DNA from: an uncultured Acidimicrobiia bacterium | GTDB lineage: Bacteria; Actinomycetota; Acidimicrobiia; Acidimicrobiales; CAIXPF01 | Length of the DNA stretch: 36,912 nucleotides | Direction: 5' to 3' | NCBI GenBank assembly: GCA_903921205.1 | Contig: CAIXPF010000085.1 | Location: 1 to 36,912, forward strand | In this document: piece by piece, positions 417-11,731 of the stretch | How positions within the stretch are numbered: position 1 is the first letter of the stretch | Layout of the letters: every line of letters begins with the position of its first letter | Program-made: the position numbers and the translations under genes | Notes under the pieces: generated by a model | Database searches by the model: none | What the model was told of the DNA's origin: nothing | What the model saw: the letters and a program-made list of their open reading frames with translations, nothing else

Positions 417-2441
417 TCAGGCGCTGCGACGGCTGCGGCCGCCGAGCAGCTTCTTCTTCTGCTCCAGGAAGTCGACGAGCACGTAGTCCCCGAGCGTGTC
501 GGGGGTGGTGAAGAACGCCCGCCCCCGGTTCATCTCGGCCACCTTCTCGATGAACGCCTTGAGGTAGCTCGTGGCGTCCAGCATGAAGGTGTTGATGACG
601 ATGCCGTCCTTGGTGCACCGGGCCACCTCACGCAGCGTGCGCTGGATGGTCTCCGGCTCCGGTGGGTAGGCGAAGTACGGGGTGCCGTCGTCCTCGATGT
701 GGGCGGTCGGCTCGCCGTCGGTGATCATGATGATCTGCTTGGTTCCGGTCTGGCGGGAGAGCATCTGGCGGGAGATGGCCAGACCGTGCTGCATGTTCGT
801 GCCGTACACGTAGTCCCAGCTGACCTCGGGCAGCTCATGGGCCTTGAACTCCCGGGCCACCGACGAGAACCCGACGAGACCCATGTAGTCCCGGGGGTAC
901 TGCGAGGAGATCAGGCTGTGCAGCGCCATGGCGACCTTCTTGGCCGGCAGGAAGTTGTCGCGCATGGGCATCGACAGCGACAGGTCGAGCATCAGCACCG
1001 TCGACTGCCGGACCATGGTCTCGGTGCGCTCGACCTCGAAGTCGTCCGGCGTGAGATGCACCGGGGAACCGACACCCTGGCGCCGCACCGCGTTGCGCAT
1101 GGTCTGCTGGATGTCGAGGTTGAACGGATCGCCGAACTCGTAGGGCTTGGTCGAGTACTCGCGCTCGTGACCGAAACCGCTCTTGGCGATGGCGTGCCGA
1201 CCGACCTGGTCCATGCGCAGCTTCTGGAACAGATCCGTCAGGGCGTTCTGGCCGATCCGACGGATTCCGCGCGGGGTGAGCTCGAGCTTGCCCTCACGGT
1301 TCTCGATCAGCCCGGCCTCCTCGAGCATCTTGGCGATACGGGCCATGTTCTGCAGGCTCTGGGCCGCCTCGTCGCCGAGAAGCTCCCGGGCCCGCTCGAT
1401 GTCGACCTCGGCGAGCGCCCCCGGGTTCGAGGCGCCGCGCAGCAAGTTCTCGAGCTGGTCGAGGTCACCGAGCTGCTCCATGAGCTCGGCCGCCTGCCCG
1501 AAGTTGAGCGGGTCCTGACCGGTGAAGTTGTAGCTCTTCTCCCAGCCGGCGTCGGGGAAGGCCTGCTGCAGGTTCTGGGCGAGCTGGTCCATCTGCCAAC
1601 GCAGGTCCATGTCCTCGAGCAGTTGCTGGGACAGGCCCTGCAACTGCGCCCGCTGCTCGGGGGTCATCGAGTTCAGCATCGCCTGCATGGCCGCCATGCG
1701 CTCGGCCATGGTCTCGAGCAGCTCGTCGAGATTCTGCGGGTTCTCCGGGAAGAAGTCCCCGAAGCGCTGCATGAAGTTCTCGAAGTCCTGCTGGGTGTCC
1801 TCACCCTGGTTGCGTTTGTCGAGCAGGTTGTTGAGCTCCGACAGCATGTCCTTGGTGCGGGCCATGTCCTCGGGGGTGATGTTCTCCATCGCCCCGGCCA
1901 TCTGGTTGACCTGGCTCTGCATGATCTGCTTGCGCAGCTGGTCGATGAGCTCCTCGAAGCGCTGCTGGGCCTCCTGGGAGACGAAGTCGTACTCCTGCAG
2001 CTCCTTCACCTGGCCGGCGAGGTCGGGCGAGAGCATGTCCAGCTGGAAGTTCCGCTCCGCCATCGACTGCTGGGTGAGCTCCTGTTGGCGCTGATCGCCG
2101 GACTGGGCGGCCTCGTCGAGGCGATCCTCGATGGCCTCGCGTTCCATCTCGACCACCTCGCGCAGATCCTGGGCGATGTCGTCGTACACGCCGCCGAGGT
2201 CGTAGCGCTCGAGTTCGTTCTTACGACGACGACGCAGGTTCTCGAGCATCTCGCGGATGCCCTGCATGTGATCGCCGTCCGGGGTACGGAACCCCTGGTG
2301 CATCATCTTGCGCAGCGCAGCGTTCAGATCACCGTGGTAGAGCAGGTCATCGGTGAGTTCGGCCAGGATTTCATCGGCTCCGAGCTCGAACCCGACCTGT
2401 GTGCCGTCCCAACGGGAGTAGCGATAACGAGAACCCGACAT
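417..2441 (-). CDS. VWA-domain protein (CoxE / Mg-chelatase subunit D-like), MoxR partner
   Basis: This 674-residue protein is predicted to be cytoplasmic. Residues ~1-420 are highly charged, Gln/Leu-rich and likely helical. Residues ~480-660 form a von Willebrand A domain with the metal-site motif DLSLS after TVLML, a GTN segment, and ITDGEP as the last metal-site strand. Proteins of this type work with a MoxR/ChlI-like AAA+ ATPase in metal insertion or protein remodelling. The likely partner is the ATPase gene at 5160-6578, on the same strand but separated by two opposite-strand genes. The ATG at 2441 is preceded by TAGCCT six bases upstream and has no Shine-Dalgarno sequence, which suggests a leaderless start. 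The substrate is unknown. Confidence 0.85.
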   Translation of the reverse strand: MSGSRYRYSRWDGTQVGFELGADEILAELTDDLLYHGDLNAALRKMMHQGFRTPDGDHMQGIREMLENLRRRRKNELERYDLGGVYDDIAQDLREVVEMEREAIEDRLDEAAQSGDQRQQELTQQSMAERNFQLDMLSPDLAGQVKELQEYDFVSQEAQQRFEELIDQLRKQIMQSQVNQMAGAMENITPEDMARTKDMLSELNNLLDKRNQGEDTQQDFENFMQRFGDFFPENPQNLDELLETMAERMAAMQAMLNSMTPEQRAQLQGLSQQLLEDMDLRWQMDQLAQNLQQAFPDAGWEKSYNFTGQDPLNFGQAAELMEQLGDLDQLENLLRGASNPGALAEVDIERARELLGDEAAQSLQNMARIAKMLEEAGLIENREGKLELTPRGIRRIGQNALTDLFQKLRMDQVGRHAIAKSGFGHEREYSTKPYEFGDPFNLDIQQTMRNAVRRQGVGSPVHLTPDDFEVERTETMVRQSTVLMLDLSLSMPMRDNFLPAKKVAMALHSLISSQYPRDYMGLVGFSSVAREFKAHELPEVSWDYVYGTNMQHGLAISRQMLSRQTGTKQIIMITDGEPTAHIEDDGTPYFAYPPEPETIQRTLREVARCTKDGIVINTFMLDATSYLKAFIEKVAEMNRGRAFFTTPDTLGDYVLVDFLEQKKKLLGGRSRRSA

Positions 2442-2447
2442 GGGCGA

Positions 2448-2453
2448 AGGCTA
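2448..2453 (-). promoter_or_regulatory. -10 box of VWA gene (leaderless)
   Basis: TAGCCT on the minus strand ends 6 nt before the ATG at 2441. This is the TANNNT spacing at which the transcript would begin at the start codon. Confidence 0.6.
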
Positions 2454-2515
2454 TCGGTCCGGGCCCGTCAATGTCGGCCCGGTTCCCCTGCCGCAGCCCG
2501 GTCGTGACGCCTCGG

Positions 2516-2521
2516 TAGCGT
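2516..2521 (+). promoter_or_regulatory. -10 box of DUF445 gene
   Basis: TAGCGT ends 9 nt before the ATG at 2531. It is divergent from the VWA promoter, and the two -10 boxes are 62 bp apart. Confidence 0.45.
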
Positions 2522-2530
2522 TGGATCTCC

Positions 2531-3799
2531 ATGACCGGGTTGGGCAGTGCCGTCGATCGCAGCGACGACGACCGGTCTCGGCGCGAGGACCTCCGCCGCA
2601 TGAAGGCGGGTGCCACCGGCCTGCTGCTGCTGGTTGCCGTGGTCTTCGTCGTGGCCACCCTGGCAGAACGACGCAACGATGCCTGGGGGTACCTGCGGGC
2701 TGCGGCCGAGGGTGCCCTGGTCGGCGGTCTTGCCGACTGGTTCGCAGTCACCGCACTGTTCCGGCGCCCACTCGGGCTGCCCATCCCCCACACGGCGCTG
2801 ATACCGACCCGGAAGGATGCCCTCGGCCGGTCGCTGGGCACCTTCGTCGAGGAGAACTTCCTCGCCGGCGACGCGGTGATCGAGCGGCTGCGCGCCATGC
2901 AACCGAGCCGCCGGGCCGCCGCCTGGATGGTCGCACCGGGCAACGCTGCGGTGATCAGCCGCCATGCCGCCGCAGCACTGGCCGGCGCCACGGACGTGCT
3001 GCGCGACGACGAGGTCTCCGGAGCGCTCGAACAGGCTGTCGTCGAGCGCGTCCGGCGTATCGGCCTCGCCCCGCTGGCCGGGCGGGCCCTGGCCGTGGCT
3101 ACCGCCGAGGACCGCCACCGGCCCTTGGTCGATGCCGCCCTCACCGGGGCAATCCGCTTCCTCGACGACCAGAAACCCCACCTGCGCAACCGCTTCGGCC
3201 GCGAGTCACCCTGGTGGGTGCCCGAGCCGCTCGACGACAGGATCTTCACCAAGCTGTACAGCGGCCTGCGCGGGTTCCTCGTCGAGGTGGCACGGACCGA
3301 CGACCATGCGCTGCGACGTCACCTCGACGACCGGCTCGCCGAGTTCATCGTACGACTCGAGACCGACCCTGCACTGGCGGCCCAGGTCGACCGCTGGCGC
3401 GAGGAGTTCCTGAGCCACCCTGCGGTGCGAGCCTGGATCGGGTCGTTGTGGGGCGAGTTCAAGACGGCGCTGGTCGCCCAGAGCGCCGACCCCTCCTCCG
3501 AGTTGCGCCGTCGTCTCGAACGGGCGGCAGCCGACGCCGGAGACAAGTTGTCTGCCGACACGGCGCTGCAGCACAAGATCGACCGGTGGCTCGAGGGGGT
3601 GACCCGGTACGTGATCCAGGCCGAGGGACACCAGGTGGGCGAGCTCATCGCCACCACGGTGCAGCGGTGGGACCCCAACGAGGCGACGGACCGCATCGAG
3701 ACCCACGTCGGGAGGGACCTGCAGTTCATCCGGATCAACGGCACCGTCGTGGGTGGACTGGCAGGCCTGGCGATCCACACGGTCGGCCGGCTGCTGTGA
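2531..3799 (+). CDS. DUF445 family membrane-associated protein
   Basis: This 422-residue protein matches the DUF445 (YjiN-like) family. A hydrophobic helix lies at residues ~28-46. It is followed by the family's conserved EGALVGGLADWFAVTALFRR segment, which includes the typical ADWFAVTALF. A long helical region with repeated charged heptad-like stretches follows, and a short hydrophobic segment closes the C-terminus (VVGGLAGLAIHTV). No biochemical function is established for the family. The gene sits between the minus-strand VWA and MoxR genes and is transcribed away from the VWA gene. The start is the first ATG after a -10-like TAGCGT, with little sign of a Shine-Dalgarno sequence. Confidence 0.85.
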   Translation: MTGLGSAVDRSDDDRSRREDLRRMKAGATGLLLLVAVVFVVATLAERRNDAWGYLRAAAEGALVGGLADWFAVTALFRRPLGLPIPHTALIPTRKDALGRSLGTFVEENFLAGDAVIERLRAMQPSRRAAAWMVAPGNAAVISRHAAAALAGATDVLRDDEVSGALEQAVVERVRRIGLAPLAGRALAVATAEDRHRPLVDAALTGAIRFLDDQKPHLRNRFGRESPWWVPEPLDDRIFTKLYSGLRGFLVEVARTDDHALRRHLDDRLAEFIVRLETDPALAAQVDRWREEFLSHPAVRAWIGSLWGEFKTALVAQSADPSSELRRRLERAAADAGDKLSADTALQHKIDRWLEGVTRYVIQAEGHQVGELIATTVQRWDPNEATDRIETHVGRDLQFIRINGTVVGGLAGLAIHTVGRLL

Positions 3800-3830
3800 A
3801 TCCCCGCCCGGACAGCCCCGGGCAGGCCGC

Positions 3831-3836
3831 TACGGT
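3831..3836 (+). promoter_or_regulatory. -10 box of GH1-like gene (leaderless)
   Basis: TACGGT ends 6 nt before the GTG at 3843, and there is no ribosome-binding site. This supports choosing that GTG. Confidence 0.6.
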
Positions 3837-3842
3837 CACAGG

Positions 3843-5072
3843 GTGACCGTGCCCGCTTCGCTGACCTGGGGTGCCGCCTTCCCCGCCGTGCAATCGGAAG
3901 GCGCGGCCCTCGCCTCGGACTGGTTCGACTGGGAACGACGGGGTGAGGCACCGCCATCCTTCGACGGCAACGGGTTCGCCGTCGACCACGCCGACGACTT
4001 CCGACTGCTGCACGGCCTCGGCGCCGACGGGGTACGGCTCACGCTCGACTGGTCACGGCTCGAACCTGCCGCAGGCCAGCCCGACGCCGCAGCGTTCGAC
4101 CGCTACCGCGAGGTCCTCACCAGCGCCCGCGCCGCCGGTCTGCAGACGTGGGTGGTCCTGGCCGACGGGCCGCTGCCGGGCTGGTTCTCCATCGACGAAC
4201 GGGGATGGCGGGAACGCTCGGCCCGCTCCTACCTGTGGCCCCGTCACGTCGAACGGGTGGCGGAACGTGTCGGCGATCTCGTCGACGCCTGGATCCCGAT
4301 CCTGCGACCGGTCTCCTTCGCCCGTGGTGCCTTCGTCACCGCTGCTGCTCCCCCGGGGACACGCAGCATTCAGAAGTTCGTCGAGACCGTGCAGGGCGCC
4401 TACCTCGCGTCCTTCGCCGCCTGGCGGGTCTTGCGCGGCGCCCAACCGGTCGCACTCGGGGTGGAGGCAGCGACGGTGCGGGTCGGCGAGGACGGCGGCG
4501 AGCGGCCGACCCGGCTCTACGACACGGTGCAGTGGGCCTGGGTCGAGGGCCTCCGCGACGGGGTACTGCAACTGCCCCGTCTCCCCCAGCAACGCGTCGA
4601 CGAGATGCGCCACGCCTTCGACGCGGTCGCCGTCACCTTCGAGGGCACCTACGCCGTCGGCGCCGACGGCCGGGTGGCCCGGGCTCGTCAGAACGAGGAG
4701 TTGGTGGCCCTCGCCCATCGCTTCGCCGAGACGTGCCCCGACCGGCCGCTGTGGCTCGCCGGACACGTGGTCTCCGTCGGTGACGTCAAGGCCGACACCG
4801 AAGCAGCCGAGCAGGCCTGCGCCGACGTCGACGCCGTGCGTCACGACGGCATCGCCCTCGATCGTTGGATCTGGGAGCCGGCCATCGACGGCTACGAAGG
4901 CGCCGCCGGCTTCGATGCCGGGCTCGGCCTGTTCGACCGCAACCGCCACGCCAAGGCCGCAGCGGGCGTCGTGCAGCGCTGGAGCGAGGCCCGCACTGCC
5001 GCGGCAACGGCCGAGGCGGCCCGCCTCGAGGCGGGGGTCACAACGGACGGCAACGACGTCCAGCCCGTCTGA
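3843..5072 (+). CDS. GH1-fold protein lacking catalytic glutamates (probable pseudoenzyme)
   Basis: This 409-residue protein shows the N-terminal signature of glycoside hydrolase family 1. Examples are LTWGAAFPAVQSEG, where active enzymes have FxWGxATxxxQxEG, then GADGVRLTLDWSRLEP, and a barrel strand at ~101-115 followed by GW. The expected catalytic motifs are absent. Where active enzymes carry TFNEP, the sequence reads WIPILRPVSFA (~150-160). Where they carry the nucleophile motif ITENG, it reads PLWLAGHVVS. The conserved His of the LHHF strand is also missing (VVLADGPLPGW). The GTG at 3843 was chosen because it follows a -10 box. The protein may bind a glycan without hydrolysing it or may serve a structural role; both are inference. 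Confidence 0.7.
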   Translation: MTVPASLTWGAAFPAVQSEGAALASDWFDWERRGEAPPSFDGNGFAVDHADDFRLLHGLGADGVRLTLDWSRLEPAAGQPDAAAFDRYREVLTSARAAGLQTWVVLADGPLPGWFSIDERGWRERSARSYLWPRHVERVAERVGDLVDAWIPILRPVSFARGAFVTAAAPPGTRSIQKFVETVQGAYLASFAAWRVLRGAQPVALGVEAATVRVGEDGGERPTRLYDTVQWAWVEGLRDGVLQLPRLPQQRVDEMRHAFDAVAVTFEGTYAVGADGRVARARQNEELVALAHRFAETCPDRPLWLAGHVVSVGDVKADTEAAEQACADVDAVRHDGIALDRWIWEPAIDGYEGAAGFDAGLGLFDRNRHAKAAAGVVQRWSEARTAAATAEAARLEAGVTTDGNDVQPV

Positions 5073-5128
5073 GCGGACCGCAACAAGGCCACCAGCTCTC
5101 GGTCACCCGAGTCCGGCAACCCGGACAT

Positions 5129-5154
5129 GCCGCCCCGGCCGCAACCGGGGCGGC
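5129..5154. terminator. Bidirectional terminator hairpin
   Basis: A perfect 10-bp GC stem (5129-5138 with 5145-5154) and a 6-nt loop lie between the convergent GH1-like and MoxR genes. Confidence 0.6.
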
Positions 5155-5159
5155 CTCGT

Positions 5160-6578
5160 TCAGCTCCGGGCCCGGTAGGACGCCCGACCGCCCACGGAGT
5201 CCTTGTTGAGCCGCTTCGACAGGTGCAGGCCCTCGAGGAGGAACTCCACCGCCGAGGCCACCATCGCCGGCGACTCGTCGCCGTCGGTGAGGGCCAGAAC
5301 CGGCTCACGCAGCGACGGCTGGTCGCCGAGCAAGCGGACGTAGTCGGCGGAGGACACGTCCTCGCCGGCGTTGGCCACGAACCCGCCCTCGAAGGCGTCG
5401 AGCACCGTGCGGAACGAATCCGGCCCGACCCGGTTCTTGAACACCGTCAGGCCGGCCGACTTCACCAATCCTTCGACGATCTGGTTCTCGCGGCCGTCCT
5501 CGAGGGTCTCGATCTCGACCTTGCCCATGGTGGAGGCGGTGAGGGCGTCGAGGTCCGACACCCGCGGCACGATCTCGTGCTCGCCGTGCAGGATCGCCCG
5601 GCGGGCCGCGTTGGCGACCATGGTCTCCTGGTTGGACACCGTGAGACGCACCGACACGCCCGAACGCTGGTTGATGTTGCCGCTGGCCCGGGCCAGATGC
5701 GACAACGTCGCGACGATCTCGCTCATGAAAGCCGGGACCCGGACCGTCGCGCCTTCCTCGGCGAACACGGTCGCCTCCTGGTCGACGATGTCCATCTCGA
5801 TCTCGACGGTGGGCGGGTAGTGAGTGCGGATCTGAGACCCGAAACGGTCCTTCAGCGGCGTGATGATCCGGCCACGGTTGGTGTAGTCCTCGGGGTTGGC
5901 CGAGGCGACCAGGATGAGGTCGAGGGGCAGGCGGATCTTGTAGCCGCGCACCTGCACGTCGCGCTCCTCGAGCACGTTGAGCAGACCGACCTGGATCCGC
6001 TCGGCGAGGTCGGGCAGCTCGTTGATGGCGAAGATGCCCCGGTTGGTGCGGGGAACCAGGCCGTAATGGATGGTGAGTTCGTCGGACAGATAGCGGCCCT
6101 CGGCGACCTTGATCGGGTCGACCTCGCCGATGAGATCGGCCACCGACGTGTCCGGTGTCGCCAGCTTCTCGCCGAAGCGGGCATCGCGGTGGACCCAGTC
6201 GATGCGAGTGTCATCTCCGTGCTCGATCACGAGATCGCGCGCGTACCGAGAGATCGGGTTGTACGGATCGTCGTTGATCTCGGAACCGGCCACGATGGGC
6301 ATCCACTCGTCGAGCAGGTTCACCATGGAGCGGATCAGCCGGGTCTTGGCCTGGCCCCGCTCACCGAGGAAGACCACGTCGTGGCCGGCCAGGATGGCGT
6401 TCTCCAGCTTGGGGATGACCGTCTCCTCGTAGCCCATGATGCGGGGGAAGAGCGGCTCACCCGCCCGCATCTTGGCAATCGCGTTGCGACGGATCTCGTC
6501 CTTGACCGACCGGGATATCCACCCGGAGGCCCGGAGTTGACCGAGGGTTGCGGGCTGGGGGTGCGCAGGGCTCGCCAT
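5160..6578 (-). CDS. MoxR/ChlI-type AAA+ ATPase
   Basis: This 472-residue protein is an AAA+ ATPase of the MoxR/magnesium-chelatase I group. Walker A is GERGQAKTR at residues 72-80, the Walker B strand is GIFAINELPD at ~181-190, the sensor-1 region is ASANPEDY at ~225-232, and a likely arginine finger follows in PLKDRFG. The C-terminal ~150 residues are helical. Such ATPases act with VWA-domain proteins, here presumably the product of 417-2441. The ATG at 6578 is 6 nt after TAGGTT, so it is likely leaderless and has its own promoter. A hairpin just beyond the stop separates it from the convergent GH1-like gene. Confidence 0.9.
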   Translation of the reverse strand: MASPAHPQPATLGQLRASGWISRSVKDEIRRNAIAKMRAGEPLFPRIMGYEETVIPKLENAILAGHDVVFLGERGQAKTRLIRSMVNLLDEWMPIVAGSEINDDPYNPISRYARDLVIEHGDDTRIDWVHRDARFGEKLATPDTSVADLIGEVDPIKVAEGRYLSDELTIHYGLVPRTNRGIFAINELPDLAERIQVGLLNVLEERDVQVRGYKIRLPLDLILVASANPEDYTNRGRIITPLKDRFGSQIRTHYPPTVEIEMDIVDQEATVFAEEGATVRVPAFMSEIVATLSHLARASGNINQRSGVSVRLTVSNQETMVANAARRAILHGEHEIVPRVSDLDALTASTMGKVEIETLEDGRENQIVEGLVKSAGLTVFKNRVGPDSFRTVLDAFEGGFVANAGEDVSSADYVRLLGDQPSLREPVLALTDGDESPAMVASAVEFLLEGLHLSKRLNKDSVGGRASYRARS

Positions 6579-8175: not shown

Positions 8176-9011
8176 GTGGCTACGACGACACCGGCACGGG
8201 GCTCGAGCACGAGCGCTCGTGGACTGGTCCGTCCGACCTTCAAGCAGCCCAGCAAGCGGCTGCCCTATCCCATCGGTCTGTACCAGACCGCCGTGGGAAA
8301 GAAATGGGTCATGGGCGTGACCGGCATCATGATGATGGGCTTCGTGCTCGTGCACATGATCGGCAACCTGCACATGTACGAGGGGCCTGCGGAGTACAAC
8401 GAGTACGCCGAGGCCCTCCGGAACCTCGGCGGGGCACTCATCCCCCACGAGGGGGTGCTGTGGGTGTTGCGCCTCGGCCTGATCACCGCCGCGGCGCTGC
8501 ACATCCACTCGGCCGCGACGCTGACCATCATGAACCGCAGGTCGCGGCCGCAGGGCTACCAGGCGCCTCGTGACTACTCGGCGGCGAACTTCGCCTCCCG
8601 GACGATGCGGGCAACCGGCATCATCGTCCTGCTGTTCATCATCTTCCACCTCCTCGATCTGACCTGGGGGGTGTTCCTCGGCGACGACTACATCAAGGGC
8701 GACGTCTACAACAACGTGACCCGGAGCTTGTCGAGCGCCCCGGTCGCCATCGTCTACATGTTGGCGAACATCGCTCTGGCGGTGCACCTTTTCCATGGGG
8801 CCTGGAGCTTGTTCCAGAGCCTCGGCTGGAACAGCCCGCAGTTCAACCAGGCCCGTCGGGTGTTCGCGACTGCGTTCGCCGGGCTGATCCTGGTGGGCAA
8901 CCTCAGCTTCCCGATCATGAATCTGGCCGGCGTCGTCAGCCAGGACACCCGTACCACGCCTTGCGCCGCCGAGGGCGGCGAGGAAACAGACATCTGCCTG
9001 GGGGTCAACGA

Positions 9012-9015
<4 letters not shown>
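8176..9015 (+). CDS. sdhC: Succinate dehydrogenase cytochrome b558-type membrane subunit
   Basis: This 279-residue protein is the heme-carrying membrane anchor of complex II, single-subunit b558 type. It has about five transmembrane helices. Conserved histidines that could ligate heme lie in [35 protein letters not shown] and [16 protein letters not shown]. The N-terminal ~35 residues are soluble and basic. The GTG at 8176 was chosen because GGGAGGA lies 5 nt upstream. The stop overlaps the sdhA start (ATGA), indicating translational coupling in an sdhC-sdhA-sdhB operon. Confidence 0.92.
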
Positions 9016-10939
<1,924 letters not shown>

Positions 10940-10943
<4 letters not shown>

Positions 10944-11731
10944 GCGGCTCAGGACACGGCGCAACCATGCGCATCACCCTCAAGGTCTGGCGCCAGGACG
11001 GCCCGACCAGCCCCGGGTCCTTCGAGACCTACGACGTGCCGGGCGTGTCGCCGGACATGTCCTTCCTCGAGATGCTCGACGTGGTCAACGACCGCCTCAC
11101 GCTCGACGGCAAGCGGCCGATCGTGTTCGAACACGACTGCCGTGAGGGCATCTGCGGCAGCTGCGGCATGATCATCAACGGCGTCCCGCACGGCCCCGAG
11201 AAGGGCACGGCGACCTGCCAGCTGCACATGCGCAAGTTCCACGACGGCGACCAGATCGTGGTGGAGCCGTGGCGGGCTGCGGCGTTCCCGGTCATCCGGG
11301 ACGTGGCCGTCGACCGCTCGGCGTTCGACCGCATCATCGAGGCCGGCGGCTATATCTCCACCCCCACCGGGGCGGCGCCCGACGCCAACCTGACCCTCAT
11401 TCCCAAGCCGGTCGCGGACGCCGCCATGGACGCTGCGGCCTGCATCGGCTGTGGCGCCTGTGTGGCGGCCTGCCCGAACTCGGCAGCGCAGCTGTTCACC
11501 TCGGCCAAGCTTGCTCACCTCAACCTGCTGCCCCAGGGCCAGGCCGAGCGCTGGGCCCGCACCGAGGCCATGGTCGAGACGATGGAGGAGTTCTTCGGCT
11601 CCTGCACGAACCACGGGGAGTGTCGCGAGGCCTGCCCGAAGGAGATCTCGATCGACTTCATCGCCATGATGAACCGGGACTACGTCAAGGCCAAGCGCAA
11701 GAACCGCAAGCTGCTCTCGCAGATCCGCTGA
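10940..11731 (+). CDS. sdhB: Succinate dehydrogenase iron-sulfur subunit
   Basis: This 263-residue protein carries electrons from SdhA to the membrane quinone. A 2Fe-2S motif, [11 protein letters not shown] plus a later Cys in TATCQL, lies in the N-terminal ferredoxin domain. Cys clusters [14 protein letters not shown] and [14 protein letters not shown] follow in the C-terminal domain. The GTG at 10940 overlaps the sdhA stop as GTGA and has GGAG seven bases upstream, so I prefer it. An ATG at 10967 (MRITLKVW) is the alternative and would shorten the protein by nine residues. Confidence 0.95.

Follow-up and report, generated by a model that had tools for sequence, protein, structure and literature searches.

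The window analysed here is a 36,912-nucleotide stretch of DNA from an uncultured Acidimicrobiia bacterium (assembly GCA_903921205.1, contig CAIXPF010000085.1). It carries a gene related to glycoside hydrolase family 1 (GH1) that is located, as the initial annotation had stated, between the genes for a VWA-domain protein and a MoxR-type ATPase; it lies on the strand opposite to both, and a DUF445 gene intervenes on the VWA side. The features of the locus are as follows:

417..2441, minus strand: VWA-domain protein, 674 aa, divergent neighbour; MIDAS (D486xS488xS490, T548, D575) intact
2442..2530, no strand: divergent intergenic region, 89 bp from the VWA start codon to that of DUF445
2531..3799, plus strand: DUF445 protein between the VWA and GH1-like genes, not a constant part of the locus
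3843..5072, plus strand: gene for a predicted GH1-fold pseudoenzyme, 409 aa, GTG start, TGA at 5070-5072; identified by Pfam GH1, an AlphaFold (AF2) model and a match to 1vff
5160..6578, minus strand: MoxR-type AAA+ ATPase, 472 aa, convergent neighbour; Walker A GERGQAKT, Walker B FAINEL
8235..11731, plus strand: sdhC-sdhA-sdhB, succinate dehydrogenase, a recurrent neighbour on the MoxR side; sdhC start approximate

The GH1-like protein and its expression

The frame at 3843-5072 was open, with no internal stops, and its product was the only GH1 match of the genome. The Pfam GH1 profile (PF00232) aligned to residues 2-199 with 48.8 bits (E 4.9e-13), the curated cut-off being 22.6 bits. The motifs by which the N-terminal half had initially been recognised as GH1 were all present: LTWG at residues 7-10, QSEG at 17-20 and LDWSRLEP at 68-75. 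In a family-profile search, the GH1 match ran the full length of the protein (204 bits to 1vff); therefore, the C-terminal half is also GH1, merely diverged. The AF2 model, which had been proposed as a check together with superposition on an active enzyme, was a confident and complete barrel (pLDDT 92.8, pTM 0.91). All of its top structural matches were GH1 β-glycosidases, with 1vff at Z 46.0 and rmsd 2.8 for 375 residues. The protein consists of one domain of 409 aa, and the barrel begins right at the N-terminus, without a leader. It thus belongs to GH1 by homology, having passed the profile cut-off and possessing the barrel fold, and the profile and the confident model together put this membership beyond chance.

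The clean promoter described in the initial annotation was not recovered: a search for sigma-70-like promoters at 2300-5300 found none, although this is a weak test for actinobacteria. The GH1-like gene starts 43 bp behind the DUF445 gene on the same strand, and this spacing makes co-transcription of the two genes likely. The DUF445 insertion between the VWA and GH1-like genes occurred only in the genus of the window and in one genome of the same family (G005), where it may supply the promoter. Most relatives have the start of the GH1-like gene directly facing that of the VWA gene, and the two start codons were 14-86 bp apart in 38 loci. Because this distance is too short for two independent promoters, shared divergent expression is likely; judging from the spacing, a single compact divergent promoter probably drives both the VWA and the GH1-like gene.

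Loss and replacement of active-site residues

Alignment with intact GH1 proteins located the following replacements, all on the plus strand:

4164..4166: codon of D108, at the position of the conserved catalytic-site His (HHF to ADG)
4302..4310: L154-R155-P156 replacing NEP (acid/base Glu to Arg)
4641..4643: E267 at the position of the pocket Tyr
4761..4766: G307-H308 replacing the nucleophile Glu-Asn (ENG to GHV)
4875..4877: E345 at the position of the -1 subsite Trp

Neither carboxylate of a retaining glycosidase is present, since the acid/base Glu is R155 and the nucleophile Glu is G307. Likewise, the conserved His and the Asn, Tyr and Trp of the -1 subsite are represented by D108, L154, E267 and E345. 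The replacement of NEP, ENG and His in an intact frame, as initially reported, was thus borne out. When eight pocket residues were scored (Q, H, N, acid/base E, Y, nucleophile E, W, E), the window protein was found to retain two, Q17 and E352. Seven or eight were kept in every intact or ordinary GH1 and zero to four in every member of the group in which the catalytic set is lost. At the level of sequence, this split is a clean switch and not noise. By the same residues, the protein is classed as a GH1-fold pseudoenzyme, a full barrel from which the catalytic and sugar-contact residues are gone, and the annotation "family 1 glycosyl hydrolase" given to genes of the lost clade is judged wrong in function.

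In most lost members the acid/base column holds Asp or Glu, and the pocket Tyr and Trp became Asp or Glu. The pattern D/D/(G,A,S)/D was found in 38 of 81 lost members, and other subgroups showed R/E/G/E (the window), D/R/G/E or E/R/x/(S,T,A). At least three of six pocket columns were acidic in 66 of the 81, compared with two in every intact GH1. The old pocket has acquired charge in several alternative ways, which would suit a pocket that has been filled as well as one that binds something new. A single lost-clade member (L123, genome G205) carries Glu at the nucleophile column (AECG) and DDP at the acid/base position, possibly a partial reversion.

Of the suggestions in the initial annotation, repurposing is well supported, and the binding or scaffold role is a putative one. 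That the sugar pocket is not conserved argues against a simple lectin; sugar binding of this kind at the former active site is disfavoured, as most sugar-contact residues were lost in nearly all members. Two active-site Glu residues contributed from other positions had been named as counterevidence, and E267 and E345 do lie in the pocket; however, both positions vary among relatives, and the two residues were rejected as a new catalytic pair of the family.

Phylogeny and conserved gene order

When 397 genomes from the order Acidimicrobiales were searched with a profile, a clade of more than 100 members emerged, and most of these were read together with the flanking DNA. In this search the scores of ordinary GH1 proteins begin at about 220 bits, and most clade members scored far higher. 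The tree set comprised 89 genes with the catalytic set lost and 18 with the set kept. The 89 lost genes came from 88 species of freshwater and marine actinobacteria, all of this one order. Three metagenome-assembled records titled Bifidobacterium breve (L184, L191, L199) carry acidimicrobial loci, and their titles look wrong. Beyond the class, 296 genomes of the phylum were searched; the clade was found in six, all six from the class itself.

The lost members formed a single clade among intact relatives (SH-aLRT 96-97 with the trait columns removed). The tree hinted at a second, independent loss in another order (L236), but one origin was not rejected by the AU test (p 0.153). In 19 close pairs, dN/dS of the GH1-like gene was 0.05-0.31, indicating that purifying selection acts on the protein. 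In most pairs its rate of evolution exceeds that of the neighbouring MoxR and VWA several-fold. The early view that the gene was repurposed rather than decaying was upheld by 89 orthologues that share these losses and have open frames, and by the low dN/dS.

As conserved synteny, the link to VWA and MoxR suspected in the initial annotation proved strong, the search of related genomes having recovered the same losses beside the same neighbours. VWA or MoxR adjoins 86 of the 89 lost genes, and 55 adjoin both. Where both neighbours are present, the layout is uniform: VWA on the left and MoxR on the right, both on the minus strand, with the GH1-like gene divergent from the former and convergent with the latter. 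Two of the three exceptions (L108, L120) are still beside sdhCAB, and the third is on a short contig. In one genus (L166, L167), a local inversion made the gene co-directional with VWA, yet it is still in place, and in L101 it stays despite several kilobases of other genes inserted on both sides.

VWA was present in 47 of 48 genomes with the GH1-like gene versus 114 of 150 without it, and most of the order has MoxR-VWA but not the gene. In genomes without it, MoxR precedes VWA on the same strand, with a gap of 10-111 bp in 11 of 19; the GH1-like gene thus sits inside this operon, antisense. In genomes without the gene, the gap often holds 1.6-5.6 kb of unrelated genes (L218, L224, L226, L228, L231, L232, L234, L235), from which it follows that the site tolerates insertions. 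The cargo of these genomes was mixed, with no common theme. A link to defence was also considered, and PADLOC gave no convincing match. Beyond MoxR, sdhCAB was found in about 45 loci read in the order, nearly half, and in loci of other orders. MoxR-VWA stands beside sdhCAB with or without the GH1-like gene, which is reminiscent of the E. coli pair RavA-ViaA with its fumarate reductase; by this analogy, succinate dehydrogenase may be a client of the MoxR-VWA module.

The MIDAS residues D486, S488, S490, T548 and D575 of VWA were invariant among the loci read. MoxR (P0004) keeps Walker A and the catalytic Glu of Walker B; the latter motif, (I/V)FAINEL at residues 182-189, has Asn for the Asp before this Glu in 112 of 112 homologues. 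The AF2 model of the VWA protein (pLDDT 57.9) was too poor for structural work, including recognition of a ViaA-like N-terminal VAN fold.

Orthologues with intact NEP and nucleophile motifs, which had been named as a potential refutation of the pseudoenzyme reading, do literally exist; their nucleophile motif reads ECG, EHG or EAG. Within the order, 8 of 11 intact NEP-type orthologues adjoin both VWA and MoxR (L037, L043, L077-L080, L082, L093). In other orders of the class, 13 of 20 sampled loci adjoin both and one more adjoins MoxR only; nearly all are intact (same-slot intact examples are L241, L244-L248, L250, L251 and L253-L255). Because these intact orthologues occupy the same slot outside the lost clade, they represent the ancestral state and not a refutation, and the link with MoxR/VWA predates the catalytic loss. 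A few family members, above all intact ones, are located elsewhere in the genome. A sister subgroup of intact GH1 proteins with NET and AEYG or AEFG motifs (L139, L142, L144, L146-L149, L237, L249) was never found at the MoxR/VWA locus where the flanks were readable. In two genomes (G218, G294), an intact copy away from the locus coexists with a lost copy linked to it. Among 18 ordinary GH1 loci checked, none was beside MoxR/VWA.

Residues conserved in the lost clade were mostly structural GH1 residues, together with the rim segment LPGWFxxD...WPRHV:

4173..4250, plus strand: rim signature LPGWF...WPRHV, residues 111-136, candidate docking surface; conserved in MoxR/VWA-linked members, intact or lost

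Within it, G113 was found in 111 of 112 linked members compared with 2 of 15 unlinked members and 1 of 17 ordinary GH1 proteins (linked versus unlinked, Fisher p about 8e-15, kinship not corrected for). As far as the alignment goes, G113 marks linkage rather than catalysis; its distribution also tracks phylogeny. Conservation of the rim would fit a surface kept for a partner and not for sugar. Asp118 was considered as a universal MIDAS ligand, an idea weakened by linked members of other orders, which carry an acid at neighbouring positions.

Proposed role and known systems

The following explanation is proposed. In an ancestor common to the group, an active cytosolic GH1 glycosidase would have become associated with a MoxR/VWA pair that remodels proteins. 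In the order of the window, catalysis would then have been lost and the surface relevant to MoxR/VWA kept. The barrel would dock on the MIDAS-bearing VWA protein, with the LPGWF...WPRHV rim and its conserved carboxylates as the candidate surface, and would act as a dedicated client, an adaptor or a regulatory plug of the MoxR hexamer, and no longer as a hydrolase. We put the probability that this former glycosidase is a pseudoenzyme client, adaptor or plug of the MoxR-VWA pair, to which we infer a physical link, at about 0.55. A bolder version is offered tentatively: the barrel may be an integral third component, a docked adaptor or plug, of a MoxR-VWA machine that serves a respiratory complex, be it succinate dehydrogenase or a different one; on this view, the enzyme was initially captured as neighbour or client and lost its catalysis afterwards. 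Should the link be a physical one, there would be a MoxR-VWA machine with a clear partner, and the evolution from enzyme to pseudoenzyme would be traceable within one class; the intact and lost versions in the same slot would make both the targets of actinobacterial MoxR/VWA and the retention of the pseudoenzyme testable.

Several points count against a partner: gene order within one class can persist by descent, most of the order does without the gene while possessing MoxR-VWA, some family members are located elsewhere, G113 tracks phylogeny as well, Asp118 is not universal among linked members of other orders, and the gene evolves faster than its neighbours, as expected for a free-running protein. 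The main rival of the client or adaptor reading is gene-order inertia, in which a non-catalytic protein with a function of its own, such as sensing a ligand in the cytosol, has simply been inherited vertically alongside MoxR/VWA. In favour of inertia, conservation across the class extends to the entire neighbourhood, sdhCAB included, the trees fit vertical descent, and most of the order has MoxR-VWA without the gene. However, DUF445, SDR and membrane genes come and go around a GH1-like gene that stays, even in L101, and the tiny divergent spacers to VWA and the survival of linkage after local inversion also speak against inertia, which we consider possible but distinctly less probable than a functional partnership.

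Other explanations concern the pocket. The recurrent D/D/(G,A,S)/D pattern and the excess of acidic columns over intact GH1 (38 and 66 of 81 members, respectively) would suit a pocket rebuilt to bind a cation or a basic ligand or to perform new chemistry, but the set is not conserved, and the subgroup variants resemble different salt bridges that fill a pocket no longer in use; such a neo-enzyme or metal binder is therefore improbable. Hydrolysis by other residues is more doubtful still: the fold is intact and E267 and E345 provide two pocket carboxylates, yet the nucleophile and the sugar contacts are gone in nearly all orthologues, and the replacements are not conserved. As for a decaying pseudogene, the rapid evolution relative to the neighbours could point that way, but open frames in about 89 genes from 88 species, dN/dS well below 1 and a confident fold leave this explanation hardly any room.

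The preferred reading, a pseudoenzyme partner of MoxR-VWA, can be compared with several known systems. The GH1 β-glycosidases (1vff of Pyrococcus horikoshii and actinobacterial GH1 proteins) share with the window protein the (β/α)8 fold and the QxEG, WSRxEP and PPG motifs. The window protein differs from them by the absence of the His, the acid/base, the nucleophile and most -1 subsite residues, and it is cytosolic and tied to MoxR/VWA. Klotho of animals is a GH1 barrel without an intact catalytic pair that binds proteins, and it was among the PDB sequence matches of the GH1-like protein. Klotho is extracellular, has tandem domains and binds FGF/FGFR, whereas the window protein is bacterial, single-domain and located at a chaperone locus. 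In the literature searched, with subscription papers outside the scope, neither a bacterial GH1 pseudoenzyme with MoxR/VWA nor a GH1 barrel antisense between the two genes was found. GH1 pseudoenzymes such as Klotho and MoxR-vWA systems with an inactive third component are each known; their combination was not met in these searches.

RavA-ViaA, NorQ-NorD, CbbQ-CbbO and CoxD-CoxE resemble the window pair in combining an AAA+ MoxR protein with a VWA protein that has an intact MIDAS, often encoded beside the client. The window pair differs in Walker B of its MoxR, which is NE instead of DE. MoxR/VWA pairs remodel specific partners, and a carboxylate of the target completes the VWA MIDAS; for NorQD, surface carboxylates of the target are needed (PMC9976466). 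RavA-ViaA acts on fumarate reductase (PMC10585395). In the MoxR-vWA ternary conflict systems, the third component is VMAP, iSTAND, FtsH or a β-propeller (PMC7159879). No VMAP, iSTAND or propeller was found among the proteins scanned, and the match to bpMoxR was below the cut-off. The ternary systems resemble the locus studied here in having MoxR-vWA with a third conserved component, in one class an inactive enzyme (iSTAND), and they differ from it in that the candidate third component in the window is a GH1 barrel.
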